This document shows, piece by piece, positions 6,757-47,643 of a DNA stretch of 64,000 nucleotides. The DNA lies in the NCBI GenBank assembly GCA_947495975.1, contig CANMBE010000004.1, forward strand, positions 1 to 64,000, read 5' to 3'. Source of the stretch: Ignavibacteria bacterium (GTDB lineage Bacteria; Bacteroidota; Ignavibacteria; Kapaibacteriales; Kapaibacteriaceae). Under the pieces are notes generated by a model. That model ran no database searches. It had not been told where the DNA came from and saw nothing but the letters and a program-made list of their open reading frames with translations. Position numbers and translations under genes: made by a program. Numbering within the stretch: position 1 is the stretch's first letter; each line of letters starts with the position of its first letter.

Positions 6757-8181
6757 TCACTTCACAACAACAAACTCTGCCACCCCCACTGCCAATCGAT
6801 GTGTACCCTCTGTTAGTTTGCCAGTGCCAATGGCGCGGCCGCGCAGGTCGTACACGATATATATGCGCGTACCTGAGCCAACTGGCAGCGTCACAGAAAC
6901 TTCGGTTGCCGAAAGGCGCACAACGCGTTTTGGGCTGAGGTTTGATTCATCTACACGTGTGGTGCTCGCCCCTTCATACGCTCCAATGGAAGGGGGCGTA
7001 GCATACGGCTGGCCCTGCATGTCTTGGGTGAGGCTGTCAATGGGAATGCCTTTTCCAATTGCTGGACTCGCTTGCTGCAAACGTTGATCGGTTGTTGCGC
7101 CTATGAACTGCGGATCAGAACCATAGATGGAAGCAGTCTCGCTCATCGAAACTAGATTTGGTTGTGACCGAGAAACATCGTCTGATTTGTACCACAGGTT
7201 GTTCGCCAGCGTGAAAGATTCAGGTGCGGTGTTGCTACCAATGTTTACATGTGTTGAAATCGATGTGGTGTAGACGATAATGTTGTTGCGGAAATAATTA
7301 TCTCCACACGATAAGAACCTGCTTGTGTCAACAGTTTCTTGCAGAACGCGGAACACCCAACGAACGGGATTGATAATTGTGTTGTTCTCTACGTGAACAC
7401 GAACACATCCAACAAAACTTATTGGCGCAACGGATCGTACAAAAAGATTTGAATAGACTTGTAGATCTGCAGCCTCGAATGTCGCATTCGGTGGACGGAA
7501 GAATTGAAGTCCAGTGGAGCCACCGAGGTTTACAGCACGCTGACCACCATCGATGAATCGGTTTCCTTCAATCCGAATGTGCTGAGTGCCGCCCTTGGCC
7601 TGTATGCAGTTAGACCCTTGACGTGTGAAGGTATTTCCCTTAAACAGGCCTTTGTGACAGCCCACCATATCTACACCACTACCACCTACGGCCCCATCTT
7701 CAAACGTACAATCCTCTATGGAGAATGTATCAAGCCCAGAGAGTTTTAGCTGATCATTATTACCAGTGGCTGCCATCTGTGTGAATAAAACATTTCGAAC
7801 AACGATGTGATGCGTTGGTGTATCGAGCACACCGCCATCATCGATATTCATTCCATTGCCGGTTTGGCGTGTTACGGTAAAGTTTTCTAGCTGAACATAT
7901 GAGCACTTGGACATATGCATTGATTCGGATCCACCATCAAACACAACGGTGCTGCGGTCTTCGCCACGGATTACAATTGGTAAGCCCGGGCTTCCATTGA
8001 GATCTTCAATCCAAAAGGTACCGAGGTATGTTCCTGCGTGGATGAGAATCGTATCACCAGCAACGGCCATGCGAGAAGCAGTGGCTGGATTTGCATACGG
8101 TCTGCCCGCTCCAACATGCAACACGGTTGCAGACACGTTACGTGCAAGCATCAGCATTAAACACATTGCAAGAATTCTCAT
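6757..8181 (-). CDS. secreted right-handed parallel beta-helix protein
   Basis: A 474-residue exported protein: signal peptide MRILAMCLMLMLARNVSA, then 'HVGAGRPYANPATA' and 'AGDTILIHAGTYLG', the usual opening of secreted pectate-lyase-fold beta-helix proteins. Regular rungs follow: 'HHIVVRNVLF', 'FSIEDCTFEDG', 'GLFKGNTFTRQGSNCI', 'HIRIEGNRFIDGG', 'LQVYSNLFVR', 'VHVENNTI', 'YFRNNIIVY'. 'SPAIGKGIP' and 'PSIGAYE' near the end are typical of this class. The final ~70 residues resemble a shortened T9SS-type tail. AGGAG lies eight bases before the ATG. Probably binds or cleaves polysaccharide, but no catalytic residues can be assigned. Confidence 0.8.
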   Translation of the reverse strand: MRILAMCLMLMLARNVSATVLHVGAGRPYANPATASRMAVAGDTILIHAGTYLGTFWIEDLNGSPGLPIVIRGEDRSTVVFDGGSESMHMSKCSYVQLENFTVTRQTGNGMNIDDGGVLDTPTHHIVVRNVLFTQMAATGNNDQLKLSGLDTFSIEDCTFEDGAVGGSGVDMVGCHKGLFKGNTFTRQGSNCIQAKGGTQHIRIEGNRFIDGGQRAVNLGGSTGLQFFRPPNATFEAADLQVYSNLFVRSVAPISFVGCVRVHVENNTIINPVRWVFRVLQETVDTSRFLSCGDNYFRNNIIVYTTSISTHVNIGSNTAPESFTLANNLWYKSDDVSRSQPNLVSMSETASIYGSDPQFIGATTDQRLQQASPAIGKGIPIDSLTQDMQGQPYATPPSIGAYEGASTTRVDESNLSPKRVVRLSATEVSVTLPVGSGTRIYIVYDLRGRAIGTGKLTEGTHRLAVGVAEFVVVK

Positions 8182-36019: not shown

Positions 36020-37363
36020 CTAGTCCATAATCTTTCGCAAAAACGCTGGCTGATTACTAGAACCACTGCCGGCTTTACGAATAGGTGGCTGATAGCCCCC
36101 TGCCGCTTGATTTGCATCGGGTTGTACAATTGGCACGCTACCACTCGAAGGAAGCTCCTGACGGGGCACTCCAGATTGTAGACGCTGATCGTTCTCGCGC
36201 TGGCGACGGATATAGGCCGGCACGTTTACGTCGTTTACGTCAACATCTTCTGCAGCACCTTGCAAGATAGTTGGCGATTGTACTGTTGCGGCTGCACGAT
36301 AGGTATCGGTCATGGCGTCAGGTTCTGGAGCCGTGCGAACGATCTCAATGATTGGACTAGACATGATGGAGGAGGTTACCGGAATAACCTTCTTCTCGTC
36401 TTGACGGCGGAAGCCAGTTGCTACAACGGTAATGGAAATTTCATCTTCCATGCTTTCGTCAATCACAACGCCATGTATAAGGTTTACCTCATCACCTGCT
36501 GCCTTTTCAATCGCAGAAACAGCTTCGCTCACTTCGAACATCGTCATGCTTTGTCCGCCCGTGATATTCACAAGCAAGCCTTGTGCGCCGTAGATGGACA
36601 TACCTTCGAGGATTGGTGAGTTGAGTGCATTCTGTGCAGCTTCAATTGCGCGGTGTTCCCCACCCGCAGTACCAATGCCCATAAGTGCATCGCCCATACC
36701 GGCCATAACAGTGCGCACGTCAGCAAAGTCTACATTCACATAGCCAACGCCAGAGATAATATCGGCAATGCCTTTTGTTGCATTGTAGAGCACAGTGTCT
36801 ACCATTGCTAGCGCATTGGCAAACGTTACGTCTTTGTCTACAACGGTTAAGATGCGTTGATTTGGAATCACGATCAATGCGTCTACATGCTCGCGCAAAT
36901 CTTTGATTCCATTTTCTGCGATAGACATGCGCCTCTTTGATTCATAGGCGAATGGTTTTGTGACGATGCCCACAACAAGTGCACCCAGTTCACGACCAAC
37001 GCGCGCGATTACCGGTGCTGCTCCGGTACCCGTACCGCCGCCCATGCCTGCAGTAACAAAAATCATGTCGCTACCCTGAAGTGCATCATAGACATCTTCG
37101 ATGCTCTCCTCTACAGACGCCCGCCCCTTGCTTGGGTCCGCCCCCGCTCCAAGTCCGCGCGTAGCGTCCTGACCTAACTGAAGTTTTATTCCAGCAGGAT
37201 TATTCATGAGCGCTTGGCGATCTGTGTTCGCAGCGATAAATTCAACGCCGTCAAGTCCGCGTGCGATCATCGTTCGCACTGCATTCCCTCCGCCGCCGCC
37301 AACGCCTACCACGCGAATTCGCGCGTCTGACGTAAATGATGTCGTGTCCAACTCGATGGCCAT
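36020..37363 (-). CDS. ftsZ: cell division GTPase FtsZ
   Basis: 447 residues. The tubulin-like GTPase is complete: '[17 protein letters not shown]', '[11 protein letters not shown]', the signature loop '[19 protein letters not shown]', '[16 protein letters not shown]' and '[20 protein letters not shown]' (core '[13 protein letters not shown]'). After a ~100-residue variable linker it ends in the conserved C-terminal peptide '[11 protein letters not shown]', which binds FtsA. It forms the Z ring. It is last in the ftsQ-ftsA-ftsZ run, 40 bases after ftsA, with a terminator just downstream. Confidence 0.97.
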
Positions 37364-37403: not shown

Positions 37404-38705
37404 TTACAAATTTTCGAACCAGTCCTTCACATTCTGCAGAAGCCCTCTTTTTTGAGGAGGGGGCTCAGCAATTGCTACGGGCTGGCTAACTACTGGTCTT
37501 GATACCATCGGCGCGCTGCTTACCACGGCACCCCGATGCTCTTCGTCAAACTCACCTTCATGTTCAATGCTGTACAACGCAAGTCCAACGGCAGTTGCAT
37601 GCGCAGGGGTTGTTACTTCCCTTGCAAGTCCATCATGACTAAAACCACGCGGGAGCCCCTTGTTCACAGGCAACCGGAAGGTTCTTTGAGCCAGCATGTC
37701 TGCACCACGGAGATCTGAGCATCCCCCTGTGATTACGATGCCGGCCGCCAATTGATGCGCCAAACCTGAGTCATGAATTCGTTGTAAGACGAATTCAAAA
37801 ATTTCCTCCATACGTGGTTCAATGACCTGACAGAGTATGGTCTTCGATAACTCTGTTGGCCTGCGTCCACCAACACCAGGAACCTGAAAATGTTCGTCGC
37901 GTAAAATGCTGTCTGAGATTGCGTGCCCGTGGTCAACTTTTATCTGCTCTGCATCGCTGTTACGAATACCAAGCACAGTAACGATGTCATCCGTTACCCG
38001 TTGTCCGGCAAGGCCAATCACGCTCACCGATCGCAAAACATTTTCTTTATAGATCGCAAGGTCTGTTGTGCCACCACCGATATCAACGAGCGCTACTCCA
38101 ACTTCGCGCTCAGCGTCATCAAGTACAGCAAACGAGCTCGCGATGGATTGCAAGACAACGGCATCAACATGCAACCCTGCGCGCTCTGCACACTTGTATA
38201 CATTTTCAACTGCGGCTGCAGATGCAGTAACGACCAATGCATTCGCCTCAAGCCTACGTCCGCTCATTCCCAACGGATCAGAAATACCATCTTGACCGTC
38301 GATGATGTAGTCTTGGGCAATCACATGAAGGATTCTTCTATCCGGCGTAACGTGCACCTGACTTAGTTCATCGTGCAAACGCCGTACATCATCTTCGGCA
38401 ATTTCTGATGTGCGCGTTGTTACAATGCCGCGTGTAGTGAATGTAGATACGTGCTCACCACTCACACCAATGACCACACGCGCAAGCTTGTAACCACTTT
38501 GTTGTTCTGCTTTGTCGATGGCCGATTTTATAGCATCTGCTGTCTTGTTGATGTTGGTCACAACACCGCGCTTTAGTCCGTCGCACTCGGCCGTTCCGGT
38601 ACCAAGAACTTCGATGAGTTTCTTTGCGGGGTCAAACGCTGTTACAACAACACAAACCTTTGTGGTGCCAATATCAAGTCCAACGTGGATCTCGGGTGTG
38701 CTCAT
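37404..38705 (-). CDS. ftsA: cell division protein FtsA
   Basis: 433 residues, starting MSTPEIHVGLDIGTTKVCVVV; an ATG 60 bases upstream would extend into ftsQ without similarity. Actin-fold ATPase features are 'VGLDIGTTKV', 'VALVDIGGGTTDLAIYK' and 'IVITGGCSDLRGA'. The 1C domain lies in 'GVVTNINKTADAI' to 'RRILHVIAQDYIIDG'. The C-terminus 'QNVKDWFENL' is a short amphipathic membrane anchor. FtsA tethers FtsZ to the membrane. Overlaps ftsQ by four bases (ATGA). Confidence 0.96.
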   Translation of the reverse strand: MSTPEIHVGLDIGTTKVCVVVTAFDPAKKLIEVLGTGTAECDGLKRGVVTNINKTADAIKSAIDKAEQQSGYKLARVVIGVSGEHVSTFTTRGIVTTRTSEIAEDDVRRLHDELSQVHVTPDRRILHVIAQDYIIDGQDGISDPLGMSGRRLEANALVVTASAAAVENVYKCAERAGLHVDAVVLQSIASSFAVLDDAEREVGVALVDIGGGTTDLAIYKENVLRSVSVIGLAGQRVTDDIVTVLGIRNSDAEQIKVDHGHAISDSILRDEHFQVPGVGGRRPTELSKTILCQVIEPRMEEIFEFVLQRIHDSGLAHQLAAGIVITGGCSDLRGADMLAQRTFRLPVNKGLPRGFSHDGLAREVTTPAHATAVGLALYSIEHEGEFDEEHRGAVVSSAPMVSRPVVSQPVAIAEPPPQKRGLLQNVKDWFENL

Positions 38706-39487
38706 GCAGCACGCTCCGCGAGTGGTGCAACCGCATGGTAGCGCAGCACAACCTGGTTGTGCCACCGCAGGTCTACCTGCGAGACGGTTGTCATGTCTAG
38801 CCGCTGCGACGTCTCACGCCAGAACACATTCATGTCTGCAAATGCAAGTGACGCGCGAGCAGCATTCATCACTCCTAAGCGCCACGTGGTATCGTCGGTG
38901 ACAATTGTTACGGCTTGACTTCTGCGATCAAGACGTACTTCTGAAATTGCTTGGTACAACATTGGATGCAGCGTGCGAGAGCCAGCAACTAAAACCTCAA
39001 CAATGTGCTGCACGTCTTGCGCTGAAAGTTCAACACCATCTGTTGATTGCAAAACAGGCACGTTATGAGCTGTTCTTTCTACTGCGTTTGGGAGCACTAC
39101 TCCAAATGCATCTACATATCGCAATGACCCATCTGCGCGCACAACGTGCGCAACCGGAAGCCGCTCCTCAACTTCAACTGTTACTTCGCGGATTCCTGTG
39201 AAGTACACTGAGGCATTGCGCACATACGGCGTACTCTCCACGCACGCTCGCACATCAGCCAGCGTAAAAGCTTTGAGATATTTGCTCTTGAGTGTATCCA
39301 CTGAACGTTGTACGGCAATGCGACTAAGACCTGTGGCACCAACGACGTTAACCTTTGTTACGCGCTGCCTATCGTGCCACTGCGTTGCCATGAAGCCAAG
39401 AAAAATCACACCGAGGAGGGAGATGACGAGCCCCGACGACCTGTGGCCACCGTTTTGCTTCGAAACATCGCGTCCCTTCTTCGCCAC
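38702..39487 (-). CDS. ftsQ: cell division protein FtsQ/DivIB
   Basis: 261 residues: short basic cytoplasmic start, one membrane helix ('SGLVISLLGVIFLGFMA'), then a POTRA domain ('TKVNVVGATGLSRIAVQRSV' ... 'VRNASVYFTGIREVTVEV') and a beta domain ('RYVDAFGVVLP', 'VSQVDLRWHNQVVLRY'). The fold order and place directly before ftsA support FtsQ, although the sequence is divergent as usual. It links early and late divisome parts. In most bacteria murC or ddlB lies upstream; here there is a non-coding region with DnaA boxes. Confidence 0.88.
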   Translation of the reverse strand: MAKKGRDVSKQNGGHRSSGLVISLLGVIFLGFMATQWHDRQRVTKVNVVGATGLSRIAVQRSVDTLKSKYLKAFTLADVRACVESTPYVRNASVYFTGIREVTVEVEERLPVAHVVRADGSLRYVDAFGVVLPNAVERTAHNVPVLQSTDGVELSAQDVQHIVEVLVAGSRTLHPMLYQAISEVRLDRRSQAVTIVTDDTTWRLGVMNAARASLAFADMNVFWRETSQRLDMTTVSQVDLRWHNQVVLRYHAVAPLAERAA

Positions 39488-39501
39488 TGCTTCTCTCCAG
39501 A

Positions 39502-40294
39502 TGTGGAAAACCCAGCTAAGTTATTAACACATGTGGTTAACTGCCGCTGCGCTGATCTATTTTGAGCTCTATTCGTGCCATCTTCCTACTTGATATCCCT
39601 GCGCTCTACAAGGAGTTACGACCTCGCAAATGTAATACGGATGCATAGAAGAAGCAAGGGGTATGAGGAGGAATAATGCGAGGTTTGTATACAGGTTATC
39701 CACATGGAGTTAACAACTCTTGGAAATCAACTCAAGGATCGTGTCCGTCCCCCATCTACCAAGATGCTCGTACCTGTAATGTAGGACGCCGCGGGAGATG
39801 CGAGAAAGCTAACGGCATTCGCTATTTCTTCTGGCAAAGCAAACCTGCCTAACGGTATTTCATGCTTCATCGATTCGCGAACCTCATCCTCGGAACGCCC
39901 GTGGCTAAGAGCATTTCGAGAGATGATTGCTATGAGCCGATCTGTTTCTGTAGCTCCCGGAAGTACGTTGTTGACAGTAATACCCTTAGAGCCAAGTTCA
40001 TTTGCCATGGTCTTTGACCAACTGGCCATTGCACCCCGAATGGTGTTACTTACCCCAAGCCCATCAATTGGTTGTTTCACAGATGTGGATATGATGTTGA
40101 TTACTCGGCCATATCCGTCAGACGTCATTCCTGGCACTAGAACCTTAGTGAGTTGATGCGCTACAAGTACATGATTTTCAAAGGCTTGTTTGAGGCTTTC
40201 CACAGGGCTTTCCACAAGTAATCCACCGGCAGGTCCAGCCGTGTTATTCACGAGAATGTGGATAACGCCATGCTGATCCACATGGTTATGCACA
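39502..40294. other. DnaA-box cluster, candidate replication origin
   Basis: Three exact matches to TTATNCACA: 39696-39704 (plus), 40257-40265 (minus) and 40286-40294 (plus). Near matches: TGTGGAAAA at 39502, TGTGGTTAA at 39532, TGTGGATAT at 40084, CTTTCCACA at 40196 and 40208, and TGATCCACA at 40274. Part of the cluster is in the 239-base gap between ftsQ and the SDR gene and part inside that gene. By chance an exact box should occur about twice in the whole window. No clear AT-rich unwinding element and no dnaA gene are seen here. Confidence 0.45.
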
Positions 40295-40521
40295 TGCGTC
40301 AACAATGCTACTTCGTCTCGCATATCAACAGCAATAGCGTTGTGGTGTTGCCCGCCATGCACGCTCAACGATACCAAGACATCCCGTAGAAGCTCAGGGT
40401 TGCGCGCAAGCAACGTTACAGAAGCCCCATTTCGAGCTAACTCTTGAGCAGAAGCTCGGCCAATGCCCTGCGAACCGCCGCAAACAAGTGCGCGTTTACC
40501 AGCAAGCGAGAGATCCATCAT
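39727..40521 (-). CDS. short-chain dehydrogenase/reductase with atypical active site
   Basis: 264 residues of the classical SDR fold: cofactor motif 'GGSQGIGRASAQELARNGA' (GxxxGxG), 'VNNTAGPAGG', 'GRVINIISTSVKQP', 'ITVNNVLPGATET', and 'ASYITGTSILVDGG' at the end. In the catalytic segment 'GLGVSNTIRGAMASWSK' the usual Y-x-x-x-K is replaced by S-N-T-I-R, so both catalytic Tyr and Lys are absent, while the upstream Ser remains. I recall similar 'SNS.R' proteins annotated only as SDR. It is divergent from the 3-hydroxyanthranilate dioxygenase gene, 51 bases apart, but a pathway role is unproven. Confidence 0.85.
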   Translation of the reverse strand: MMDLSLAGKRALVCGGSQGIGRASAQELARNGASVTLLARNPELLRDVLVSLSVHGGQHHNAIAVDMRDEVALLTHVHNHVDQHGVIHILVNNTAGPAGGLLVESPVESLKQAFENHVLVAHQLTKVLVPGMTSDGYGRVINIISTSVKQPIDGLGVSNTIRGAMASWSKTMANELGSKGITVNNVLPGATETDRLIAIISRNALSHGRSEDEVRESMKHEIPLGRFALPEEIANAVSFLASPAASYITGTSILVDGGRTRSLS

Positions 40522-40572
40522 GTTCCTTGTACTTTTGTGATGAGCGAAATTACTACGTGAACGAGGACCAAT

Positions 40573-41094
40573 ATGTCAATCCGCCCAGCTTTTAATCTTC
40601 AGTCCTGGATAGACGAGCATCGCCATCTGCTGAAGCCCCCTGTAGGCAATGCAAAGGTGTATGAGGACACGGACTTTATTGTGATGATCGTTGGTGGGCC
40701 AAACGCCCGCAAAGACTATCATTATAATGAAGGTGAAGAATTTTTCTATCAAGTGGAAGGCGACGTGATAGTAAAGATCATCGATGACGGCACTCCTCGA
40801 GATATACACATAAAACAAGGCGACATTTTTCTGTTGCCACCACGCACGCCGCATTCACCACAACGTCTAGCACATACGGTTGGGCTCGTCATCGAACGAA
40901 AGCGCGACACGATAGAGCTTGATGCATTCATGTGGTTTTGCGAAAATTGTGGGACAAAATTGTACGAAGAATCTATGCCACTTACGGATATCGTAACGCA
41001 GCTCCCACCTGTATTTGAGCGTTTCTGGTCCAACATGGATCACCGCACGTGCACTTCCTGTGGCACAATCATCCAGCCCCCTATCAAGGCTTGA
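40573..41094 (+). CDS. nbaC: 3-hydroxyanthranilate 3,4-dioxygenase
   Basis: 173 residues, cupin fold. Iron ligands and substrate Arg are in 'NARKDYHYNEGEEFFYQVEG' (core 'RKDYHYNEGEEFFYQ') and 'LLPPRTPHSPQR'. The C-terminal rubredoxin-like metal site with two CxxC pairs ('WFCENCGTKLYEE', 'RTCTSCGTI') is the form found in bacterial and fungal enzymes. It opens the ring of 3-hydroxyanthranilate to 2-amino-3-carboxymuconate semialdehyde (ACMS), in tryptophan/kynurenine breakdown or NAD synthesis. The stop overlaps the next start (TGATG), and that gene encodes the ACMS decarboxylase. Eukaryotic name HAAO. Confidence 0.95.
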   Translation: MSIRPAFNLQSWIDEHRHLLKPPVGNAKVYEDTDFIVMIVGGPNARKDYHYNEGEEFFYQVEGDVIVKIIDDGTPRDIHIKQGDIFLLPPRTPHSPQRLAHTVGLVIERKRDTIELDAFMWFCENCGTKLYEESMPLTDIVTQLPPVFERFWSNMDHRTCTSCGTIIQPPIKA

Positions 41095-42152
41095 TGATGC
41101 TAAAGATTGACTGCCACTCACATATTCTGCCTGAACGATGGCCTTCATTAAAGGATCGGTTTGGGTATGGTGGCTTTATTGAACTTCACCACTATGCTCC
41201 TGGCAAGGCGCGGATGATGGGCGATGATGGAACCTTTTTTAGAGACATAGACCAAAACTGTTGGGATCCGCTTACCATCCTGAGTGACATGGATGCGAAC
41301 GGTGTAGATGCCATGGTACTCTGTACAGTGCCTGTTTTGTTTTCGTATTGGGCAAAGCCTGACGATACTCTCTATTGGTCACAATTCTTAAACAACCACC
41401 TCGCCGGGGTGGTGAAAGATCATCCACGTAGGTTTATTGGCCTAGGCACGCTGCCCATGCAGGACATTAATCTTGCCATCCAAGAGCTGCGACGATGTGT
41501 AACAGAGCTAGGATTTCCTGGCGTTGAGATTGGCACCAATATCAATGGCAAGAATCTTGACGACAAATCATTGTATCCGTTTTGGGAAGCGGCGCAAGAG
41601 CTTGGCGCAGCAATATTTGTGCACCCATGGGAAATGATGGGTGCAGAGAGAACGAAGAAATATTTTCAACAGTGGCTTGTGGGCATGCCTGCAGAAACCA
41701 CGCTCTCAGTGACGTCTATGATTTTTGGCGGCGTCTTTGACGCCTTTCCTAAACTTCGCGTGATGTTCTCTCATGCAGGGGGCTCCTTCCCGTTTACACT
41801 GGGCCGCATCTCTCATGGTTATCATGCACGTCCAGACTTATGCAACGTACATAACGTGCACGATCCAAAGGAATACATTGGGCAATTCTGGGTGGACTCT
41901 ATCACTCACAATGCAGATGCCCTGCGGTTCTTGTTGGCACTCATTGGCCCCGAAAAGATTGCGTATGGCACCGACTATCCGTTCCCGTTAGGCGACTTAG
42001 AACATGGGAAGTTCATAGGCGAAATGACTGATTTGTCTCCTGCCATCAAGGATCTTCTGTTCTCAGGTGCTGTTCTAGACTTTCTGGGCCTAGACGCCAA
42101 GGACTACGAAATACGGACAAGTCTCTCAGATTCTGAGACCGTTTTCGAATAG
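41094..42152 (+). CDS. nbaD: 2-amino-3-carboxymuconate-6-semialdehyde decarboxylase
   Basis: 352 residues, amidohydrolase (TIM-barrel) fold. The first of two adjacent ATGs overlaps the stop of the preceding gene. Zinc ligands are 'IDCHSHILPERWP' (HxH), 'IFVHPWEMMG', 'VMFSHAGGSFPF' and 'IAYGTDYPFPLG'. 'GFIELHHYAPGKARMMGDDG' is typical of ACMS decarboxylase. It removes carboxylate from ACMS, steering carbon to 2-aminomuconate semialdehyde and away from quinolinate/NAD. Together with the dioxygenase it forms a two-step module; kynureninase and the aminomuconate semialdehyde dehydrogenase are not in the window. Confidence 0.93.
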   Translation: MMLKIDCHSHILPERWPSLKDRFGYGGFIELHHYAPGKARMMGDDGTFFRDIDQNCWDPLTILSDMDANGVDAMVLCTVPVLFSYWAKPDDTLYWSQFLNNHLAGVVKDHPRRFIGLGTLPMQDINLAIQELRRCVTELGFPGVEIGTNINGKNLDDKSLYPFWEAAQELGAAIFVHPWEMMGAERTKKYFQQWLVGMPAETTLSVTSMIFGGVFDAFPKLRVMFSHAGGSFPFTLGRISHGYHARPDLCNVHNVHDPKEYIGQFWVDSITHNADALRFLLALIGPEKIAYGTDYPFPLGDLEHGKFIGEMTDLSPAIKDLLFSGAVLDFLGLDAKDYEIRTSLSDSETVFE

Positions 42153-42192
42153 TCTTGCAATCAAAATCTGAACCTTCCGTAGATTTGCCTCC

Positions 42193-42274
42193 GGAGGGCT
42201 CGCATAATGGTATTGCAGCTGTCTTGAAAACAGCCGGGTTTGCGCCTGTGGGGGTTCGAATCCCTCGCCCTCCG
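42193..42274 (+). tRNA. tRNA-Ser (anticodon UGA)
   Basis: An 82-base cloverleaf with a long variable arm. The acceptor GGAGGGC pairs exactly with GCCCTCC. The anticodon arm is GCTGT-CTTGAAA-ACAGC and the T-arm GGGGG-TTCGAAT-CCCTC. Anticodon UGA reads UCA; the discriminator is G as in Ser tRNAs. CCA is not encoded. Confidence 0.95.
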
Positions 42275-42292
42275 CTCTTTTTTTCAATTAGG

Positions 42293-43060
42293 ATGAACCA
42301 CGTGATCCGTTTAGCAATCTTTAGCGCAGCAACAATACTCGTATTGTCGGCCTGCAGCACTGACCCCGTGACGCCTAATGACACCAGCGTATACGTGGTT
42401 GCCACAAAGGGCACATACTTTATCAATGATAATGTTGTCATCACCATTGACGCTGGTGGAACAAAGGCAGACGTTCCTGCTCCTCAAGACAGCACCTATG
42501 TAAATGGGACAAAGTCAGTGAACGGAAAAACCGCTGTTGAATCCTTCGTGTTCATCGGTGGCGTTGCTACTGACACAACATATGTGGCTCAAGAAGGATT
42601 AAAAGTATCAGCACTCACGCCGTTGCAATTCGTTGTTCTTGGTGCTCCTGTTGATCTTGGTAATAAGTGGGTGCTGACATATGATGCGAATGCAACCACG
42701 TGGACTGCGCTTGACGACACAATTCCTTCGATCTCGATTCAGGCTGGTCCAAGCACATATACGGGCTCGGCAAAGTTGCTCTTTACAGGTAAAAAGCTTG
42801 CGGCTGAAAATATTACGGTGAATGGCTCTGCTCTTTCAGCAGTAAAGACCGAGATGAAGATGCTCATTACACTTTATGTTGACTTCGGTGGTTTTGTTCT
42901 TCCTGTGCCGATTGAGCTTATCCGTAATACGTGGTTTGCAAAAGGTGTTGGCGTAGTGAAGATTGAGCAAGACGCCAAGGTCATCAATGCACCACCTGCC
43001 CCTCCGCTTACGCTTCCTGGGCAACGCATTTCAACCGTTCGCTTTAACATCGCTAAGTAG
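42293..43060 (+). CDS. lipoprotein of unknown function
   Basis: 255 residues. The N-terminus is a lipoprotein signal (HVIRLAIFSAATILVLSACS, lipobox LSAC) followed by a 'TDPVTPND' linker. The rest is beta-rich with no family I recognise: 'TVNGSALSAVKTEMKMLI', 'TLYVDFGGFVLPVPIELI'. I list the ATG; a GTG nine bases later has AGGA at better spacing and would give VIRLAIF. It sits 18 bases after tRNA-Ser and ends before a strong terminator. Probably an outer- or inner-membrane-anchored periplasmic protein. Confidence 0.75.
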   Translation: MNHVIRLAIFSAATILVLSACSTDPVTPNDTSVYVVATKGTYFINDNVVITIDAGGTKADVPAPQDSTYVNGTKSVNGKTAVESFVFIGGVATDTTYVAQEGLKVSALTPLQFVVLGAPVDLGNKWVLTYDANATTWTALDDTIPSISIQAGPSTYTGSAKLLFTGKKLAAENITVNGSALSAVKTEMKMLITLYVDFGGFVLPVPIELIRNTWFAKGVGVVKIEQDAKVINAPPAPPLTLPGQRISTVRFNIAK

Positions 43061-46767: not shown

Positions 46768-47643
46768 TTACTCACCGCCTGACAACTTACGCGCGATCCA
46801 TAGGTCCAATCCGCCCGGTCCGCCCGGACGATTGCTGGCAAAAACCTGAGATCCGTCTGGCAGCACAATACAGCCGCTTTCATCAAACTCAGAATTAAGC
46901 CAATCCACTGGTACGGGCTCCTGCCAAGCCCCATTACGAAAAACACTGTAGAATAGATCATACCCGCCCTTGCCACCAAATCCATTAGATGAAAAGAGAA
47001 GTGTATCTGCAGAGATAAAGGCTGGGCTGATCTCTTCATCTGAAGAGTTCACCGTGCGACCCAGATTAATAGGTGAACTCCACGTTAAGTCTACCCGCCT
47101 ATCACTTATCCACAGATCAAGTCCTCCCTCGCCCCCTAGCCTATTGCTAACAAACACAAGCCTTGTACCATCTGGTGATATCGCTGGATGTGACACGAAA
47201 AAGGGGCCATTGACAACCGCAATTGGATGACCCATATTGATTGAGCCGGTCTCGCGTGTGGCGCTTACAATTCCTGGATACGACTGTTCTTCATACGCGC
47301 CATACGCCACGCCAAAAGCCTCACCCGTAGAAGTGAACGAGATGAATGCGCGATGCTGGCTAACAGCATTAAAAGAACCGGGAAAGAGGACTGACGTTGA
47401 GTCGCTTTGTATTGAGGTCCGATAGATACCGGCCGCTCCACCGCGCTCTGAAGTGAAGACCAGAAATTTCATACGCGGATCTATCGACGGTGCGTATTCA
47501 GCCTCAGGCGTATTACACATCCACAATGGAATGGCATGCGATACATTGCTGCTGAGGCGCGACGCGTAACGGTCCTCTTGTGACGTCACATCACTTGCCA
47601 AAGCAAACATCGCGGTGCAGACGATGATTGATCTTTTTATCAT
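46768..47643 (-). CDS. exported PD40/WD40-like beta-propeller protein
   Basis: 291 residues with a signal peptide (MIKRSIIVCTAMFALASDVTS). PD40 repeats are evident: 'FLVFTSERGGAAGIYRT', 'SPDGTRLVFVSNRLGGEGGLDLWIS' (core 'PDGTRLVFVSNRLGGEGG'), 'DTLLFSSNGFGGKGGYDLFY', and 'GSQVFASNRPGGPGGLDLWIA' (core 'VFASNRPGGPGGLDLW'). These blades are common in Bacteroidota outer-membrane complexes, usually fused to an OmpA domain, which is absent here. It starts within queE's stop (ATGA) and is the last gene of the ilvE-META-recG-queE operon. Confidence 0.82.
   Translation of the reverse strand: MIKRSIIVCTAMFALASDVTSQEDRYASRLSSNVSHAIPLWMCNTPEAEYAPSIDPRMKFLVFTSERGGAAGIYRTSIQSDSTSVLFPGSFNAVSQHRAFISFTSTGEAFGVAYGAYEEQSYPGIVSATRETGSINMGHPIAVVNGPFFVSHPAISPDGTRLVFVSNRLGGEGGLDLWISDRRVDLTWSSPINLGRTVNSSDEEISPAFISADTLLFSSNGFGGKGGYDLFYSVFRNGAWQEPVPVDWLNSEFDESGCIVLPDGSQVFASNRPGGPGGLDLWIARKLSGGE

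Follow-up and report, generated by a model that had tools for sequence, protein, structure and literature searches.

A family-conserved cluster of DnaA boxes in front of ftsQ, a probable DnaA-binding control region of ftsQ-ftsA-ftsZ in the Kapaibacteriaceae

The coupling of replication initiation to division in bacteria is still an open question. The nearest known case to the locus described here is the ftsZ promoter of Caulobacter crescentus, in which DnaA controls ftsZ, along with gcrA and mipZ, and binds the promoter region (PMC8203912). In Escherichia coli, three DnaA boxes are found within ftsQA and were demonstrated to have no role in transcribing ftsZ (PMC8203912); boxes near fts genes therefore need not function. 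Elsewhere in E. coli, the dnaA and mioC promoters have several boxes in or near the promoter and are repressed best by ATP-DnaA, and the loci datA and DARS2 contain five and six DnaA boxes, respectively (PMC4585315).

Here, we describe a cluster of DnaA boxes upstream of ftsQ in an Ignavibacteria bacterium of the family Kapaibacteriaceae (GCA_947495975.1), located in a stretch of 64,000 nucleotides of contig CANMBE010000004.1 that is referred to below as the window. As at Caulobacter ftsZ, the promoter of a core division gene would couple replication state to expression, with DnaA binding predicted here from the motifs. Unlike Caulobacter, the organism belongs to another phylum, the presumed target is the ftsQ leader, ahead of ftsQ-ftsA-ftsZ, and four near-fixed box sites surround a Bacteroidota-type promoter, with a second array in the upstream gene. 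The locus resembles E. coli ftsQA in having DnaA boxes near the same genes, but its boxes flank a predicted promoter before ftsQ and are conserved in the family. It shares with the E. coli dnaA and mioC promoters the presence of several boxes within or close to a promoter, here a predicted one; those promoters, however, act on dnaA and on an oriC-adjacent gene, whereas the effect here, if any, would be on division genes far from the origin. Dense arrays outside oriC are also represented by datA, DARS1, and DARS2 of E. coli and by the DnaA-box clusters of Bacillus subtilis, from which this array differs in lacking the E. coli IHF consensus and in standing at fixed distances from a promoter.

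Content of the cluster and density of DnaA boxes

The cluster covers 793 bp (positions 39502-40294; Table 1). A sequence-only reading of the window had reported three exact boxes and about six near-matches in 0.8 kb, and our recount gave three exact boxes and six with one mismatch; two more sites are half-matches to TTTCCACA. The same reading placed several boxes inside a short-chain dehydrogenase (SDR) gene, which indeed holds seven box-like sites, four of them in 51 bp. It named one more exact box in the window, at 47106, as isolated, to which another isolated exact box at 7780 (-) has to be added, and it described plus-strand genes to the right of the cluster, where the gene order is in fact mixed.

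Table 1. Features of the ftsQ region, with positions given in the window
Feature	Position	Strand	Sequence or motif	Details
ftsZ	36020..37363	-		Last gene of the putatively controlled set; Pfam Tubulin 4.8e-46, FtsZ_C 2.6e-29
ftsA	37404..38705	-		Pfam FtsA 4.5e-40; homologues align from residue 1
ftsQ	38702..39487	-		Lies first downstream of the cluster; start codon GTG at 39487
DnaA box D	39502..39510	-	TTTTCCACA	One mismatch; immediately before ftsQ start; at most one mismatch to TTWTNCACA in 21/22 genomes
DnaA box C	39521..39529	+	TTATTAACA	One mismatch; within one mismatch in 18/22 genomes
DnaA box B	39532..39540	-	TTAACCACA	One mismatch; within one mismatch in 21/22 genomes
Conserved start of transcribed leader	39594..39620	-	GTAA..C.TTG....GGGATA	Alignment of 22 genomes
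Predicted -7 element	39627..39634	-	TACATTTG	Bacteroidota TAnnTTTG type; 22-genome alignment
Predicted -33 element	39655..39657	-	TTG	20 bp from -7 element
DnaA box A	39696..39704	+	TTATCCACA	Exact; 38 bp upstream of -33 element; exact in 17/22 genomes
SDR gene	39727..40521	-		Pfam adh_short_C2 1.4e-42
Near-match box in SDR gene	40084..40092	-	ATATCCACA	One mismatch; among the highest synonymous-conservation peaks
Two weak box-like sites in SDR gene	40196..40216	+	CTTTCCACA	Half-matches at 40196 and 40208; no special conservation
Four boxes in 51 bp, SDR gene	40244..40294	+, -, +, +	TTATTCACG, TTATCCACA, TGATCCACA, TTATGCACA	40244 (+), one mismatch; 40257-40265 (-), exact; 40274 (+), one mismatch; 40286-40294 (+), exact

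The 2.18-Mb draft genome contains 65 exact TTATNCACA boxes, approximately 1 per 34 kb, and a complete listing for the genome shows three inside 600 bp at the ftsQ cluster and nowhere else. We scored boxes in a sliding 800 bp, each TTWTNCACA counting 2 and any other box with one mismatch counting 1. The window reached 13 at its best, compared to highest scores between 6 and 9 in 12 simulated genomes of 2.18 Mb each with matched dinucleotide make-up. When 1.23 Mb from this genome and the family relative G014 were ranked, the two ftsQ clusters came first and second with scores of 13 and 11, and the next place scored 7.

The gene assignments next to the cluster are based on protein family matches and alignments of homologues. 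Both Pfam matches of ftsQ, to POTRA_1 (FtsQ-type; 2.1e-5) and FtsQ_DivIB_C (4.1e-5), exceed the curated cut-off, and the start of ftsA was placed at the ATG at 38705, its open frame extending to 38765. The DnaA of this genome matches Bac_DnaA_C (2.4e-27) with an intact GGRDHTTV motif in the box-reading domain; judged from its sequence, it is able to read TTATNCACA.

Conservation of the promoter module and the SDR array

The family comparison included 22 genomes of the Candidatus Kapaibacterium type with FtsA identities of 62-93%; most named family records carry the label Candidatus Kapaibacterium or Ignavibacteria. In the alignment of these genomes, the ftsQ leader has a few conserved islands amid otherwise diverged DNA, namely box A, the TTG with TAnnTTTG, the short transcript-start element, and boxes B, C, and D. 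The combination of TAnnTTTG and TTG is the Bacteroidota promoter pattern (PMC7366714), and both a -7 motif of the form TAnnTT(T/A)G and a 20-bp spacer between it and the TTG are found in 22/22 genomes. The boxes keep their distances from this predicted promoter across genera: box A is 38 bp from the -33 element in 21 of the 22 genomes and 37 bp in one, the -7 element is 85-88 bp from box B in 21/22, and box B is 30-32 bp from box D in 21/22, where each box position is the best match no more than 4 bases from the aligned column, a rule that is slightly biased towards boxes.

Box B is TTATCCACA or TTTTCCACA in many relatives, and box C is TTATTCACA in most members of the genus to which the bacterium belongs. 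The variation among sites tracks the DnaA R-box consensus TTWTNCACA (PMC4585315), in that position 5 varies freely, A or T predominates at position 3, and CACA hardly changes. Single boxes are degraded in some genomes, most extremely in G007, in which three of the four sites are off consensus; these single boxes aside, the layout of boxes around the predicted promoter is kept in all 22 genomes. Analysis of the leader RNA revealed no conserved fold, and the transcript-start element had no match in Rfam.

By tblastn, the SDR gene is upstream of ftsQ in 21 of the 22 genomes. The genome without it, G014, retains boxes A-D and has only weak sites further upstream. The distance between the SDR array and box A varies from 536 to 623 bp, unlike the spacing in the promoter module. 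Constraint on the encoded protein could by itself preserve sites of this kind within a gene. However, synonymous conservation across 21 genomes is 0.67 at codons with the third base in a box versus 0.12 elsewhere (p = 0.001), and 0.56 versus 0.10 when the bacterium's own genus is left out (p = 0.0002). Third codon positions in the SDR boxes vary less than codon usage explains; selection therefore acts on the DNA itself at these sites. A separate synonymous-conservation peak in the SDR gene, at 40169-40178 (FENHVL), overlaps no DnaA box.

In relatives outside the family, the ftsQ box cluster was not found. The box measure upstream of ftsQ is 7-18 in the family and 0-4 in most other relatives. 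An apparent box excess at ftsQ in L132-L134 was ascribed to AT-rich DNA (31-32% GC), together with an upstream gene and box positions unlike those of the family cluster.

Probable control of ftsQ-ftsA-ftsZ by DnaA

We consider it probable that DnaA binds the cluster and through it controls ftsQ-ftsA-ftsZ, linking replication state to division. The near-fixed layout across the family suggests that DnaA helps control division in these bacteria. Retention of the boxes in relatives, the only check proposed in the sequence-only reading to give a positive outcome, favors the second of its two options, a DnaA-regulated region. The predicted promoter is positioned between box A upstream and boxes B, C, and D before the ftsQ start. 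DnaA, as the putative bound protein, would most likely repress transcription of ftsQAZ when ATP-DnaA is high, either by closing a loop between box A and boxes B, C, and D or by blocking polymerase in the leader, which would match ATP-DnaA repression at promoters such as dnaA and mioC (PMC4585315). When active DnaA falls after initiation, the division genes would be released. The SDR array, 0.5-0.6 kb upstream, may serve as a supply for cooperative binding or may hold DnaA. Against DnaA control, the SDR array is too distant for simple promoter control, some boxes are degraded in some genomes, and the promoter is a sequence prediction; the main caution comes from the E. coli ftsQA boxes, which have no effect on ftsZ (PMC8203912). 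The family-wide sequence record of a promoter-linked DnaA-box array at core division genes provides exact sites to mutate.

An alternative interpretation is that the region is mainly a site for titrating or recycling DnaA, comparable to E. coli datA or DARS, and that its neighborhood to ftsQ is incidental. This would be consistent with a dense array whose DNA is conserved within a coding gene and at a distance from any start site, with its ori-distal position in G014, and with the presence of several DnaA boxes outside oriC, as at datA and DARS. Titration, however, would not require boxes A-D to stand at rigid distances from a conserved promoter, and the E. coli consensus WATCAANNNNTTR for IHF, a site expected within the array of a datA or DARS2, is, as the only form searched, absent from the region in this genome and has single hits in 2 of the 22 genomes. 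We regard a mainly titrating role as unlikely. We further speculate that the 0.8-kb region as a whole could work as a single DnaA nucleoprotein switch, both holding or inactivating DnaA in the way of datA and gating the ftsQAZ promoter, such that passage of the fork through the mid-replichore array would be read directly as a division signal; we think this quite unlikely.

Because binding by DnaA is deduced from the motif, a different transcription factor with a similar site might bind there instead. This seems highly improbable, given that the variation allowed at the sites is the DnaA R-box pattern and that similar TNTCCACA pairs are present at the candidate origin.

Location of the replication origin

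The first option of the sequence-only reading was that the cluster represents an unusually placed chromosome origin (oriC), a claim for which none of the proposed tests that were run gave a supporting outcome. Its top density among the DnaA-box clusters of the 1.23 Mb scanned, its conservation throughout the family, and its bipartite form (SDR array and leader array), as in some known origins, would fit an origin. The GC skew, however, does not switch at the cluster in contig C4, to which the window belongs, in G014, or in G017. It is negative in every 10-kb step of C4 (149,403 bp) and unchanged at 40 kb. The draft genome consists of 24 unordered contigs, and the skew was therefore taken from G014, which has a complete chromosome of 2,841,677 bp, in 40 samples of 20 kb each. 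There, most samples at 0.07-1.47 Mb have negative skew and most of those from 1.48 Mb onward have positive skew, a few departing from this trend, and the local cumulative minimum in the contiguous stretch of 1.34-1.56 Mb is at 1,465,929. The ftsQ boxes of G014, at 2,318.8-2,319.3 kb, have positive skew on both sides; the switch is approximately 0.85 Mb away, beside parS, mnmE/mnmG, and serS. These data would place the ftsQ cluster approximately 30% of the chromosome from the replication origin in this one complete relative. In G017, a member of another genus, the skew of a 0.95-Mb contig is positive on both flanks of ftsQ, and the sampled skew in G012 is near zero.

Gene context also argues against an origin at the cluster. 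The dnaA gene, correctly reported as absent from the window, is on contig C1 at 143.7 kb, away from the cluster, and parS and mnmE/mnmG are on C9, so that none of them neighbors it; the parS pairs are at mnmG and not at the ftsQ cluster. No DnaA-trio-like run of at least five triplets follows any box at 39300-40600, and the region is not AT-rich, with a GC content of 0.47 for 39502-40294 and 0.44 for the leader. We judge an origin at this place extremely improbable. The DnaA-box cluster of highest density in a genome thus need not be its origin, a caution for the automated prediction of oriC from this group's draft genomes.

The intergenic region at the 3' end of serS on C9 is a better oriC candidate than the ftsQ cluster and likely the true origin, a good but incomplete assignment. 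The order of serS, mnmG, and mnmE on C9 is the same as in G014, and the 5' end of mnmG bears parS sites at 93,951 and 94,009; G014 has two parS-like sites at 1,477,001 and 1,477,125. The skew of C9 is negative at 20-90 kb and then flat, with a broad cumulative minimum at approximately 90-100 kb. Basal unwinding elements consist of boxes followed by DnaA-trios (PMC8287927). A stricter trio test, [CT]T[AT], gave nothing useful, and the published NAN rule was then applied with a threshold of at least five triplets. In the AT-rich interval (GC 0.36) between an M42 peptidase gene and the 3' end of serS, an element at G000:C9:88068-88119 (L103:8068-8119) begins with the tandem boxes CTTTCCACA and GTTTCCACA, followed by a 4-base spacer and 11 triplets with a middle T. 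Matching elements are at the equivalent place in G012 (103872) and G017 (21725) (also L199 near 7768 and L200 near 2858), and the skew of G008 changes sign at the M42-serS intergenic region. No paired element was found by the same rule in the serS region of G014, G008, or G018, and the oriC assignment therefore rests on three genomes together with skew and parS. Searching the literature for Kapabacteria together with the origin of replication yielded no paper.

Finally, a functionless chance cluster, which might be suggested by the genome-wide count of exact boxes (65, no commoner than the 70 matches to a reversed control pattern), is a negligible prospect, as the cluster scores 13 against a maximum of 9 in the 12 simulated genomes and the conservation of box sites at the same place in 22/22 family genomes already refutes it.

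In the sampled relative G014, the second-strongest kind of cluster has four boxes spread over 0.3 kb, at the 3' end of a lipB-like gene (G014:C1:436073-436344; L036). In the window, a 3-hydroxyanthranilate dioxygenase gene and an amidohydrolase gene, a kynurenine-pathway pair, occupy 40573-42152 and are divergent from the SDR gene. The 5' end of a frame called from a TTG start (42155-43060) overlaps a tRNA gene at 42193-42274, and the true frame is probably shorter.
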